A DNA stretch of 60,659 nt from Clostridia bacterium (GTDB taxonomy: Bacteria; Bacillota; Peptococcia; DRI-13; UBA5745), in assembly GCA_018434325.1 (NCBI GenBank), contig JAHDPO010000042.1, positions 1 to 60,659 of the forward strand, in the 5' to 3' direction. Each line of letters starts with the position of its first letter. Position 1 is the stretch's first letter. The notes under the pieces were generated by a model. It did not search any database and was not told the origin of the DNA. It saw nothing but the letters and a program-made list of their open reading frames with translations. Below are positions 9,847-47,739 of the stretch, piece after piece. The position numbers were made by a program, and so were the translations under genes.

Positions 9847-9900
9847 AGAGGGCTGTCTCAAATTGATTTTTGAAAAACCAATTTGAGACAGCTCTTTTTT
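9846..9900 (+). terminator. Strong rho-independent terminator after yraN
   Basis: A long stem formed by GGCTGTCTCAAATTG and its inverted copy CAATTTGAGACAGC around an A/T-rich loop, followed by CTCTTTTTT. It ends the rbgA-rnhB-yraN run. Confidence 0.9.
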
Positions 9901-9929
9901 GCAGCATTGATAAGGATAAGGGGTCAACT

Positions 9930-10308
9930 GCTCAATTTTGCAAGTTTTACACCCCCATGTTGAGCTGCTGCTCAAAATTGCAGATATTACACCCGGCATG
10001 ATGTGCCGACTGCCCAGAATTGCAGATATTCCCGGAAAATGCAATGGCTAACTGCTCAAAACGGCAAATGCAGGTGTAAAATCGAGGCCACTGAAAAATG
10101 AGCAAAATTTCAAGTTTAAAGTGTCAGAACGCCGTTTTGGAGAATGTATTTGACTGCATTTTACCGTATTTGGCTATATCTAGTGCATCCGCAAGAGAAT
10201 AGACCCTATTTTGAATAGGCGAGACACTTTAAACCTGCAATTTTGCGTATTTGGGGTGCGGAACTTTTTCAGTGGCCTCTGTAAAATCTGCAATTTTGAA
10301 CAAAAGGG
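9930..10308. repeat. Palindromic repeat element, locus A, with 41-bp-spaced motif copies
   Basis: Most elaborate copy of a dispersed family. A ~26-bp motif (start GCTCAAAATTGCA, end TTTTACACCC) occurs in direct orientation at about 9930, 9970, 10012 and 10054 (spacing 40-42 bp). A related copy at 10100-10125 forms the left arm of a palindrome whose right arm is 10223-10247 (GACACTTTAAACCTGCAATT...). An outer perfect 15-bp inverted repeat is GAGGCCACTGAAAAA at 10084-10098 versus 10265-10279. A further inverted motif copy lies near 10281-10301. The core shares GTATTTGGCTATAT-TAGTG with loci B and C. No reading frame of substance. Confidence 0.85.
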
Positions 10309-22272: not shown

Positions 22273-23349
22273 TCAGACGCCCAGCCTTATCATACTTAGA
22301 TTGGCGTTTGTGCCCGGTCCAAACAGGATATCTCCACCGGTGGCGCTCGACAGTGCCAGAGTCAGCACATCGCCTGCTGCTAAGATAACAATACTGCTAA
22401 GGGTAATAATTTCAAAATCGGCGGTTAAAACGGTCGAGGTGATCAGAGACGGTTGCGAAAAATCTCCGTTGACTTCAACGCCAGCCGTGATGTCGAAGCT
22501 ACCGCTTGTGCTTTGCAACAGAAGAAAGAATTCAATACGGTAGTATCCGGCAATATCAATAACGACGCTGTTTGTTCCCGGGGTTACGTTGACGTTTTCC
22601 ATGTTTTCTTCCAGTGCAACGCCCGCTGTACCGCCCGGGTCGATAGCAATGATTTGAATAGCGTCGTTGTATAGGCCGCCGAATGCTATGACGGCTTCGG
22701 GGCCGGTTGGGCCGGTTGGGCCGGTTGGGCCGTCAGCGCCTGTGGCGCCGGTTGGGCCAGTGGGGCCGGTAGCGCCGTCAGCACCAGTGGGACCGGTTGG
22801 GCCAGTGGGGCCGGTAGCGCCGTCAGCGCCAGTTGGGCCAGTGGGGCCGGTAGCGCCAGTTGGGCCGGTTGGGCCAGTGGCACCGGTAGCGCCGTCAGCA
22901 CCAGTGGCGCCGGTTGGGCCAGTGGGGCCAGTGGGGCCGTCAGCGCCAGTTGAGCCAGTGGCACCAGTTGGGCCGGTAGCACCTGTGGCGCCGGTTGCAC
23001 CAGTTGCGCCGGCGGGCCCCTGTGCACCGGCAGGGCCGGCGGGCCCCTGTGCACCGGCAGGACCAGCTTCACCCTGGGCTCCTGTGGGGCCAGGCACACC
23101 AGCGGGCCCTTGTGGGCCGGCAGGGCCGGCGAGCCCCTGCGCACCGGCAGGACCGGCTATACCTTGAGGCCCTGTAGGGCCAGGCACGCCAGCGGGTCCT
23201 TGTGCACCGGCAGGACCAGGAACGCCTTGGGGGCCGGCAGGTCCGGCTTCGCCTTGCGGCCCGGGAATACAACAATAATGGCCTGTATTGCAGCAACAGC
23301 AGCCATAACTGGCATCACAATTATTGCATCTATAGTTAGAGGGATCCAT
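22273..23349 (-). CDS. Collagen-like triple-helix repeat protein, probable spore-surface (BclA-like) protein
   Basis: About 358 aa. A short Cys-rich head (C8, C11, C17-C20, C26-C27) precedes roughly 62 G-X-Y triplets at ~30-217 (first [11 protein letters not shown] types, then [10 protein letters not shown] types), then a ~140-residue C-terminal domain (AFGGLYNDA... NLSMIRLGV) resembling the BclA/C1q-like trimerisation domain. Start ATG 23349 has AAGGTGAT upstream; the longer in-frame extension to 23499 would include the promoter. A sigma-K-type promoter sits 41 nt upstream, supporting a mother-cell-expressed exosporium or coat filament protein. The head Cys could form disulfides or bind metal (inference). 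Confidence 0.9.
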
Positions 23350-23389
23350 ACAATCACCTTTCTGTGCGAAAATAAAATTATGCTCTGAG

Positions 23390-23419
23390 TATACTATGCC
23401 TAATTGAGTCGAATGGTGT
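23390..23419 (-). promoter_or_regulatory. Sigma-K-type promoter of the collagen-like gene
   Basis: On the minus strand: ACACC (plus 23415-23419), 16-nt spacer, CATAGTATA (plus 23390-23398), a full match to the CATA-N3-TA -10 and AC-type -35 known for sigma-K. It lies about 41 nt upstream of the start codon. Confidence 0.7.
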
Positions 23420-23490
23420 CTCAACTCTTCCCGAAGGGAGCCATAGCATAAGTTGACCCTCACGGACTCACTTGCCGAAGGGACTATTAA

Positions 23491-23518
23491 GGGCGTCAAA
23501 CTGTCAATTTGCGGCGTA
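23491..23518. promoter_or_regulatory. 28-bp motif shared with the region upstream of germinant receptor 1
   Basis: GGGCGTCAAACTG...ATTTGCGGCGTA matches 21811-21838 at 24 of 28 positions by eye. Both copies lie upstream of minus-strand spore genes (142 and 79 nt from the starts). It contains a weak dyad (CAAA/TTTG). Possible operator or a relic of a duplication. Confidence 0.4.
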
Positions 23519-23673: not shown

Positions 23674-23680
23674 GCCTGAT

Positions 23681-23949
23681 GCTCAAAATTTCAACTTTTG
23701 CACCCCAAACCCTAGCATTTGCTCAATTTTGCAAGTTTTGCACCCCATGTCTAATCACAGTTTTTGAGCAAAATTGCAAGTTTAAAGTGTCGGAGTACTA
23801 TTTTAGGGTCTGTATTTGGCTATACTTGGCTATATTTAGTGTTGCGATCAGGAGGCGGCCGCTATTCTGAAGGGACAGTACACTTTAAACCTGCAAAATT
23901 GAGCAGTGTGTGAGCCGCCGCGAAGGGTGATAAACCTGCAATTTGAGCA
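23681..23949. repeat. Palindromic repeat element, locus B
   Basis: Direct motif copies at 23681, 23721 and 23765 (40-44 bp apart) face inverted copies ending at 23905 and 23949. The inner palindrome spans 23765-23905: left arm TGAGCAAAATTGCAAG then TTTAAAGTGTC, right arm CACTTTAAACCTGCAAAATT then GAGCA. The core (GTATTTGGC repeated, TATATTTAGTG, GGAGGCGGCCGCTATTCTGAAG) closely matches locus C. It lies in the 738-bp gene-free stretch before the accessory block. Confidence 0.85.
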
Positions 23950-32690: not shown

Positions 32691-32725
32691 GCCCGCAGAT
32701 ATTTTCGTCTGCGGGCTATTTTTGC
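32691..32725 (+). terminator. Terminator after the P-type ATPase gene
   Basis: GCCCGCAGA and TCTGCGGGC form a 9-bp stem, followed by TATTTTT. Repeat locus C begins at the very end of the T-run. Confidence 0.88.
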
Positions 32726-32864
32726 GCAAAATTGCAAGTTTAAAGTGTCTTTGACATGGGGTACGCATCACCCATCGGCCGTATTTGGCTGTATTTAGTG
32801 CTGCGGCCAGGAGGCGCCCACTATTCTGAAGAGGCAGCACACTTTAAACCTGCAATTTTGCGCA
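32723..32864. repeat. Palindromic repeat element, locus C
   Basis: 142-bp element. Left arm TGCGCAAAATTGCAAG then TTTAAAGTGTC (32723-32749), right arm CACTTTAAACCTGCAATT then TTGCGCA (32840-32864). The core (GTATTTGGCTGTATTTAGTG, GGCCAGGAGGCG, CTATTCTGAAGAGGCAG) is nearly that of locus B. Single motif copy per side. Confidence 0.88.
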
Positions 32865-33028: not shown

Positions 33029-34573
33029 ATGGATTTCAAATTTTTTAGCAGCAAAAAAAAGCTGGCCGATAAAGTAAAAGAGCTGAATCTAAACCTGGAC
33101 AGCGTCACTCTTTCCGGTGATCTGGACGAAGAAATGGCCATATTGGAAGGCTTGTTTGAAAAAGTGGATCCCATGGTGCTGCGCCGTATCAAAAATCAGC
33201 ACAATGAGAAGCTGGAATTCGGCTTGGTCTATTGCGCCGGCATGATCGACAACGAGTATGTGGGCGAGGCCATCATTAAGCCGCTGATCAGCTCCCAGGG
33301 CATTGCTTATGACAAAAACCTCACCGATACCATCCTCACACAAGTCGTCTGCAATCATAACGGCATGAAGGCGCAGAAATACTCGGAGATCGTGGAATCC
33401 TCCACTTACGGCGACGTCGTCGTATTGATTCCCGGCAGCAAGGATGCCCTTATTTACAGCACCCAAGGCTTTCCTTTAAGGGGAACCGACGAGCCGGAAA
33501 ATGAGAAGACCCTGGTGGGGCCAAAGGAAGGCTTCGGGGAATCTCTCATCAATAACCTGGCTTTTCTGCATCGCCGCCTGCGGACCAATGACCTGAAAAT
33601 GCAATTCCGTACCCTGGGCAAGCGCACCAGAACCAGTATTTGCCTCTGTTATCTGGAGAGCCTGGCACGGCCCGATATCCTTGAGGAATTGGAAAAACGC
33701 CTGGAGATCATCGATATCGACGGCATTCTGGACTCCAACTATATCCAGGAGTTTATCCGGGATGAAGGCTATTCTCCCTTTCGTACTATAGGCACCACGG
33801 AAAGGCCGGATGTGGTGACGGGCAAGCTATTGGAAGGCAGGATCGCTATTTTTGTTGACGGTGCCCCGATGGTTTTGACCCTGCCATATTTGTTTATAGA
33901 GAACTTTGTCAACAGCGAAGATTATTATCTGCCTTTTTATTACGCCTCTTTTTCCCGGATACTGCGCATGTTTGGCTTCGTCCTGGCGGTAACGGTGCCG
34001 GCCTTTTATTTAGCCGCATCGGCTTTTAATCATGAAATACTGCCTACGCCTTTGTTGGTCAGCATCGCCCGGGAGCGGCAAAACATCCCTTTTCCTATGG
34101 CCCTGGAGATTTTCTCCATGCTGCTGGTCTTTGACCTGCTGCGGGAAGCGGGAATCAGGATGCCTACGGTTATCGGCTCGGCAATGAGTATTGTCGGCGG
34201 CTTGGTCTTAGGTCAGGCAGCCGTCCAGGCCAGGCTGGTGTCTTCGGTATTGATCATCATGGTGGCCCTTACCGGTATCACCGGTCTATTGGTGCCGAAA
34301 ATGAACACGTCGATACTGACCGTCCGCTATTCTTTGCTGGTGGCGGCCACGATTATGGGCATACCCGGTCTTACTGCCGGCATAGCTTTTTGGTGGATTC
34401 ACGCCCTCAATCTCAGCTCCTTTGGCGTAACCCAGATCAGCATGAACATCAACATGAATTATCAGGACCATAAGGATCTGCTGCTGAGGGCGCCTTTATG
34501 GCGGATGGCCCGGCGGCCCAGAAATATCGCTGTAGACAGCCAGCGTAAAGGCGAGACAAGGAGGCAATGGTGA
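33029..34573 (+). CDS. Spore germinant receptor A subunit (GerAA/GerKA type), receptor 2
   Basis: 514 aa, paralogue of the A subunit of receptor 1. N-terminal hydrophilic domain, then about five helices. Conserved blocks DGAPMVLTLPYLFIENFVNSEDYY and LLREAGIRMPTVIGSAMSIVGGLVLGQAAVQA align directly with receptor 1. GGGAGG precedes the ATG. First of a tight A-C-D-B operon; the C gene starts 1 nt after the stop. Confidence 0.94.
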   Translation: MDFKFFSSKKKLADKVKELNLNLDSVTLSGDLDEEMAILEGLFEKVDPMVLRRIKNQHNEKLEFGLVYCAGMIDNEYVGEAIIKPLISSQGIAYDKNLTDTILTQVVCNHNGMKAQKYSEIVESSTYGDVVVLIPGSKDALIYSTQGFPLRGTDEPENEKTLVGPKEGFGESLINNLAFLHRRLRTNDLKMQFRTLGKRTRTSICLCYLESLARPDILEELEKRLEIIDIDGILDSNYIQEFIRDEGYSPFRTIGTTERPDVVTGKLLEGRIAIFVDGAPMVLTLPYLFIENFVNSEDYYLPFYYASFSRILRMFGFVLAVTVPAFYLAASAFNHEILPTPLLVSIARERQNIPFPMALEIFSMLLVFDLLREAGIRMPTVIGSAMSIVGGLVLGQAAVQARLVSSVLIIMVALTGITGLLVPKMNTSILTVRYSLLVAATIMGIPGLTAGIAFWWIHALNLSSFGVTQISMNINMNYQDHKDLLLRAPLWRMARRPRNIAVDSQRKGETRRQW

Positions 34574-47620: not shown

Positions 47621-47739
47621 TGCGCAAAATTGCAAGTTTAAAGTGTGTTACGGCCATGAAAATCGGGTTTCGGGCCGTTTTTAGGTCTGAATTGCCTAAA
47701 AAGCAATGACTTGGCACTTTAAACTTGCAATTTTGCGCA
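47621..47739. repeat. Palindromic repeat element, locus D
   Basis: 119-bp element with perfect 25-bp inverted arms: TGCGCAAAATTGCAAG then TTTAAAGTG at 47621-47645, and its exact inverse at 47715-47739. The core differs from loci A-C and has its own small hairpin (ACGGCC/GGCCGT). Ends 21 nt before the next start codon. Confidence 0.9.

Follow-up and report, generated by a model that had tools for sequence, protein, structure and literature searches.

An IS1182-type MITE nested in an array of inward-facing, helically phased motifs in a Clostridia bacterium

The window, by which we mean the whole stretch of 60,659 bp analysed here (contig JAHDPO010000042.1 of assembly GCA_018434325.1, from a Clostridia bacterium), contains four loci, A to D, at which inward-facing copies of a motif of roughly 20 letters build non-coding repeat elements; about a hundred such elements are present in the genome. 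Locus A extends from 9929 to 10302. A motif scan places its first three direct units on the forward strand at 9929–9947, 9969–9987 and 10011–10029, the third being degenerate, and these are followed by a strongly degenerate fourth (TGCTCAAAACGGCAAATGC, forward strand, 10053–10071) that lies below the motif threshold and was recognized by reading the sequence. The fifth direct unit starts at 10099, as does the core element of the locus (10099–10249, forward strand), which is 151 bp long with inverted arms and a conserved asymmetric interior and closes with an inverted unit at 10231–10249; a further inverted array unit lies outside it on the reverse strand (10284–10302). Locus B has array units at 23680–23698 and 23720–23738 (forward strand), a third direct unit starting at 23765 together with its 141 bp core (23765–23905, forward strand, lacking an IS1182 terminal inverted repeat), an inverted unit at 23887–23905 and an outer inverted unit with a 1 bp deletion at 23932–23949 on the reverse strand. 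The core elements of locus C (32723–32864, 142 bp) and locus D (47621–47739, 119 bp, with a diverged interior) are both on the forward strand and have one unit per side. Altogether the window contains 22 matches to the motif with three or fewer mismatches, compared with 5.6±2.3 in shuffled sequences, none of which (0/100) reached 22.

The first-pass annotation of this DNA had the motif positions of loci A and B right to one or two bases, and its description of the arrays as inward-facing and asymmetric is borne out at both. The spacing of 40–46 bp that it gave also holds, save at locus A, whose two inverted units are 53 bp apart, and the forms at C and D, which it suggested to have a single site on each side, do belong to the same family. 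Among the neighbouring features, a strong hairpin (GGGCTGTCTCAAATTG...CAATTTGAGACAGCTC, 9850–9915) lies just upstream of array A and recurs beside the arrays L187 and L188; it is probably a repeated terminator. A gene for a collagen-like protein with a BclA C-terminal domain (22273–23499) adjoins locus B, and a GerA spore-germination protein is encoded at 33029–34573.

Locus A is nested, an IS1182-family MITE having inserted into a unit of a pre-existing array with duplication of 9 bp. The MITE is 196 bp long and has the core element inside it (10084–10279, forward strand). It begins with a 15 bp terminal inverted repeat (TIR), GAGGCCACTGAAAAA (10084–10098, forward strand), the same TIR as in full-length IS1182 elements, and ends with the right TIR TTTTTCAGTGGCCTC (10265–10279, reverse strand). 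The two copies of the 9 bp target-site duplication TGTAAAATC, at 10075–10083 and 10280–10288 (both forward strand), match at 9/9 positions, and the interrupted inverted unit reads TGTTCAAAATTGCA^GATTTTACA across the insertion. Neither the GAGGCCACTGAAAAA inverted repeats nor the 9 bp direct duplication within array A had been noticed in the first reading. At locus A it is the IS1182-type TIRs, and not the arrays, that are proven to be transposon ends, and the array is the insertion target. Copies of the MITE are short, non-coding and multiple per genome, and are mostly 190–203 bp long. The present genome (G000) is a draft of 3.83 Mb in 70 contigs, and the main comparison is with a second draft genome of the same genus, that of Clostridia bacterium isolate R1-B15.2 (G004). 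When the flanks of 18 TIR elements from two genomes were compared, identity peaked at a length of 9 only (62 % versus 28 % for shuffled pairs, z=8.0).

The assignment to IS1182 comes from a pattern scan of IMG/VR, in which the same TIR was found beside IS1182-family transposase genes, a near-complete frame and a 141-aa fragment (L243, L240); the transposase adjacent to the TIR in L243 matches NF033551 IS1182 with an E-value of 2.9e-110. Short TIR pairs are also present in the unrelated viral contigs L239, L241 and L244. A search with the L243 transposase recovered full-length elements with the TIR at both ends in G012, a member of the same order, and in G048, together with a more distant full-length IS1182 element in G059. 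The TIRs at the ends of the full-length elements L246, L257 and L261 have 0–2 mismatches to GAGGCCACTGAAAAA, and 9 bp duplications can be read off for L246 (GGATGAACC), L261 (CCAAATCTG) and the more distant L247 (GGACGGTCC). The full-length elements carry no array units, so that the idea of a complete element elsewhere with matching ends and a transposase gene is realized for the IS1182 TIRs and fails for the arrays. When the 60 genomes were searched with the L243 protein, neither this genome nor G004 had a match to it; of a cognate transposase, the former has only a DUF772 fragment. G004 has a broken IS1182-type transposase gene (L196:1399–2489), with an interrupted frame and no MITE-type TIR nearby. 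As neither genome of the genus has the IS1182 transposase in intact form, we infer its role from the TIR and the duplication. A cognate transposase is not required of a relic MITE, and the gene may have been lost or may be missing from the draft.

Across the family the core is 119–162 bp long, with arms of the form TGnGCAAAATTGCAAGTTTAAAGTGT ... ACACTTTAAACYTGCAATTTTGCnCA and an interior whose conserved blocks, CTRTATTTAGTG and CRCTATTYTGAA, are conserved in one orientation. The array unit has the consensus TGnnCAAAATTGCARGTTT, which is not palindromic and has no GTAG/CGTC tag. In this genome it is followed by the letters TACACC/TCCACC, in G004 by GTTAGC/GTCGTC; thus the motif is conserved and the remainder of the 41 bp period is not. 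Arrays of the family have from one to five units per side, and in contiguous DNA of both species 36 of the 43 multi-site clusters are ordered with forward units preceding reverse ones, while no two-site cluster is divergent. At L029, four near-identical 41 bp units lead directly into the core arm. We note that in the MITEs L014:1567–1707, L028:1498–1638 and L030:1501–1640, and also in L123:1498–1637 and L135:5088–5237, the core interior is reversed relative to the TIRs, unlike in most copies, as though the DNA bounded by the inverted arms were able to flip. The elements L187:1925–2136 and L189:3168–3339 have flanks in common past their outermost units, plus a GTTGTTTTTACAAC palindrome, and their repeat unit is longer than the array. 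A second motif family, u2 (TGCACAAAAATCGAAGTTGTGT), is found in elements of 263–319 bp with the same IS1182-type TIR (L175:7642–7950, L162:5807–6069 and L074:3208–3526). A third, u3 (TGTGCAAAAATTACGTTTGTATG), is found in elements of several hundred bp, with sites at L179:11580–11900 and at the ends of contigs C9 (L174), C44 (L134) and C52 (L176); the breaking of three contigs in or just past near-identical u3 copies suggests recent multiplication.

The relationship between the MITEs and the units was examined by searching outward for a unit from every TIR-like end. The distance from the TIR tip to the start of the unit is exactly 23 bp in 12 independent tips, 22 bp in two, 24 bp in one and 26 bp in one, and the duplication begins immediately after CAAAATTGCA of the unit; the 23 bp position of the tip means that the staggered cut starts directly after TGnnCAAAATTGCA. 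Locus A is among the 23 bp cases (unit 10284–10302, cut at GATTTTACA), and the same register is seen at the u2 family and at core arms (right flanks of C3, AGTTTAAAG, and L116, AGCTTAAAG). Homing of the IS1182-type MITEs into array units is thus recurrent and keeps to a single register.

The spacing of the units was studied in about 1 Mb of contiguous DNA of this genome, 0.8 Mb of G004 and the flanks of further matches. The outer-edge lengths of convergent pairs (n=92) fall at 99, 119–122, 130–132, 139–142, 150–152, 160–162, 171–172, 193–194 and 204 bp, with two beyond these main peaks at 242 and 261 bp and almost none between peaks. At a period of 10.4 bp the 57 pairs that lack IS1182 TIRs give a Rayleigh R of 0.82 and the 35 pairs that have them give 0.95, values that were reached in 0/20,000 control sets in each case when the lengths were jittered by up to 5 bp. 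For 17 pairs whose interiors have near-random similarity to one another R is still 0.76 (0/5,000 jittered sets), and since the phasing survives in these, neither common descent nor a 10–11 bp internal repeat is the explanation. Direct spacings are 40–41 bp in 52 of 78 pairs, and then 61–62 and 82 bp. Three further motif families of this genome and G004 follow the same pattern, with direct spacings of 41, 61–62, 72–73, 93, 103 and 114 bp and convergent lengths mostly of 67–68, 89, 98–99, 130–132, 139–141, 149–150 and 158–162 bp. The inward-facing units are therefore placed in helical phase, and convergent pairs are quantized at about 10.4 bp.

With up to three mismatches, the core arm CAAAATTKCARGTTTAAAGTG is matched 98 times forward and 97 times in reverse genome-wide, a total of 195 against none for the reversed pattern, and the array unit has 38 matches against none in the control. 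Genuine copies outside this genome were found only in G004 among 59 other genomes, and within the 60 genomes compared the family is genus-restricted. Weak matches in G039 and G044, which belong to other families, were discarded as chance or as coding DNA, the latter from a gene of the NADH-dehydrogenase/hydrogenase type as read from its translation. For 206 pairs of neighbouring orthologues the intergenic regions of this genome and G004 could be compared; an element was scored only in G004 in five and only here in two, and one of the unequal intergenic regions measures 231 bp here and 988 bp in G004. One of the five, C1:71061–71714, does hold a core in this genome, missed in the automatic count through an overlapping gene call or a site below threshold, so the corrected figures are about four and two respectively. 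Several other orthologous intergenic regions are occupied in both species, with elements that differ in sequence or orientation; taken with the regions occupied in one species only, this indicates that the elements turn over and that some places are old or reused. In alignments of orthologous intergenic regions the non-coding flanks are too diverged to fix the exact boundaries of the arrays. Cores without TIRs lie in A/T tracts, and in 19 of 21 cases the letter to the left of the core is also the letter to its right (9 AAA/AAA, 10 TTT/TTT, 2 TTT/AAA and 0 AAA/TTT; Fisher p=2e-4), which would be expected from a short, 4 bp target duplication at single cores, a weak signal given the homopolymer tracts. 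When the outermost units of the four motif families were scanned, no duplication length recurred consistently for multi-unit arrays.

Whether the arrays have a coding partner was addressed with transposase families. No gene bounded by units was found with DUF772 in this genome, with rve, DDE_Tnp_1 and Transposase_mut in this genome and G004, or with the IS1182 transposase in the 60 genomes. Searched as a whole, this genome yielded no intact transposase of the IS1182, rve, DDE_Tnp_1 or IS256 type, in agreement with the earlier observation that the window lacks a transposase. The rve search returned one broken IS3 relic here and one IS3 copy in G004, the latter without units. At the end of a G004 contig an IS256-family transposase gene (L197:100–1420) abuts two array units; it was rejected as a partner of the arrays, as its own end differs from the adjoining units. 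Nor were units or arrays found in the IMG/VR, phage and plasmid collections, and in about 1.8 Mb no paralogous gene families were seen that might encode several unit-binding proteins. Draft genomes often lose multi-copy elements, and this genome has three contigs whose ends lie in or beside elements of this kind, so that autonomous copies may be missing from the assemblies.

The regular spacing suggests that a candidate protein loops the DNA of each element. Our preferred interpretation, to which we assign a probability of roughly 0.6, is that locus A is an IS1182 MITE in an array and that the arrays are putative protein-bridged loop sites spreading as non-autonomous elements. A putative sequence-specific protein would bind every unit on the same face of the DNA, and the two inward-facing groups would be bridged into a short loop of less than about 200 bp, much as transposase dimers or lac-type repressors bridge their sites; the protein could be either a transposase or a host protein. 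The length quantization would then be what remains after only loopable, phased copies have been kept or copied, and the elements would spread in part through IS1182 MITEs that carry them along and in part through their own insertion into A/T tracts. Counting against this interpretation, the families searched yielded neither a recombinase nor a protein that binds the units, there is no consistent duplication at the outermost array units, and the orthologous regions occupied in both species also fit old, host-functional sites. A more ambitious version, which is less likely than not and which we offer only tentatively, is that the arrays represent a novel type of interspersed element in bacteria, with at least four co-resident motif families in one genus, each composed of inward-facing sites on a single helical face and looped by its own dedicated protein, and that IS1182 MITEs have evolved both to home into such sites and to carry them. 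If this were true, the genome would be a natural helical-twist experiment reporting which loop sizes are workable in a living bacterium.

If the sites serve the host instead, they would be nucleoid-protein sites or operators through which a chromosomal regulator forms loops by occupying them in pairs, and IS1182 MITEs would simply land on them, as insertion sequences do on REPs. Helical phasing is typical of paired operators, several elements occupy the same orthologous intergenic regions even though their sequence has turned over, and the motif is conserved while the spacers diverge, but there are clear empty sites in both directions between the species, and copies from several motif families can be nested at one place over as much as 1.3 kb. 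The genes beside the elements are moreover unrelated and in mixed orientation and do not offer the promoters of one regulon, and if each motif family had a protein to itself, no fewer than four regulators of this kind would be needed; we consider this explanation rather unlikely. Distinctly less likely is a Tn7-like, Mu-like or IS21-like element whose ends would be the arrays and whose rve-type transposase would bind all units; the first-pass annotation had likened the arrays to the multi-site ends of Tn7-like and Mu-like transposons. The several direct sites on one side with inverted sites on the other, their 3:2 asymmetry and the 5'-TG...CA-3' outermost ends are all as such ends would have them, and yet the absence of an intact rve transposase from this genome, of a consistent duplication at the outermost units, of a coding partner among the families searched and of any units in the virus, phage and plasmid collections speaks against it. 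The analogy remains, in that the multi-site architecture may work as transposon ends do, through synapsis of two groups of bound sites.

We regard it as very improbable that these are REP or BIME elements spread by a RAYT (Y1 transposase). There are about 100 intergenic copies in regularly spaced inverted mosaics that act as insertion sequence targets, as is described for REPs (PMC1525189; PMC2817692), whereas the unit is not a palindromic hairpin, has no GTAG tag and is spaced in helical phase over 40–200 bp. Structured RNAs or long-hairpin transcripts, in which the inverted arms would form a double-stranded RNA stem with a regulatory role, seem if anything even less probable. The arms could pair over about 25 bp and the interior keeps one orientation, but among 51 sequences none of 15 pairs in the arm stem had a double change, the covariation term was unfavourable and Rfam gave no match to the elements. 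This absence of RNA covariation fits a constraint on double-stranded DNA, and RNA pairing has no need of 10.4 bp phasing.

Several known systems come close to what is described here. The MITE resembles IS1182 elements in its TIR, GAGG[CG]CACTGAAAAAGT, and 9 bp duplication, as in L246, L261 and the more distant L247, and differs from them in having a phased core with subterminal sites and in homing to such sites, which full-length elements lack. The ends of Tn7 and Mu have several spaced binding sites that are direct within an end, inverted between ends and asymmetric in number. The arrays likewise have several spaced putative binding sites per side, inverted between sides and asymmetric, but the genome has no intact rve transposase, the outermost sites have no duplication and the helical spacing is unusually uniform. 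The internal eliminated sequences of Paramecium have lengths quantized at 10.2 bp, explained by looping in a transpososome-like complex (PMC3464196), and that paper refers to helical-twist experiments with IS50 (Goryshin 1994) and lac. Helical quantization is thus already documented for Paramecium eliminated sequences and engineered IS50 constructs, and the open-access literature searched yielded no description of it in any repeat family of bacteria. The likeness lies in short mobile elements with lengths set at the DNA helical repeat (about 10.4 bp here); the present elements differ in being bacterial, intergenic and not excised in development, and their phasing extends to internal arrays of direct sites (41 or 62 bp). 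Quantized lengths of this kind allow protein-bridged DNA loops to be tested for from sequence alone, and they supply many naturally occurring loop lengths. Lastly, REP sequences are high-copy intergenic repeats that are specific targets for insertion sequences (PMC1525189), and insertion into array units parallels that of the REP-targeting elements. The units differ in not being REP palindromes, and the inserting IS1182-type MITE itself carries the motif that it targets, which is a possible route for the growth of nested repeat arrays.
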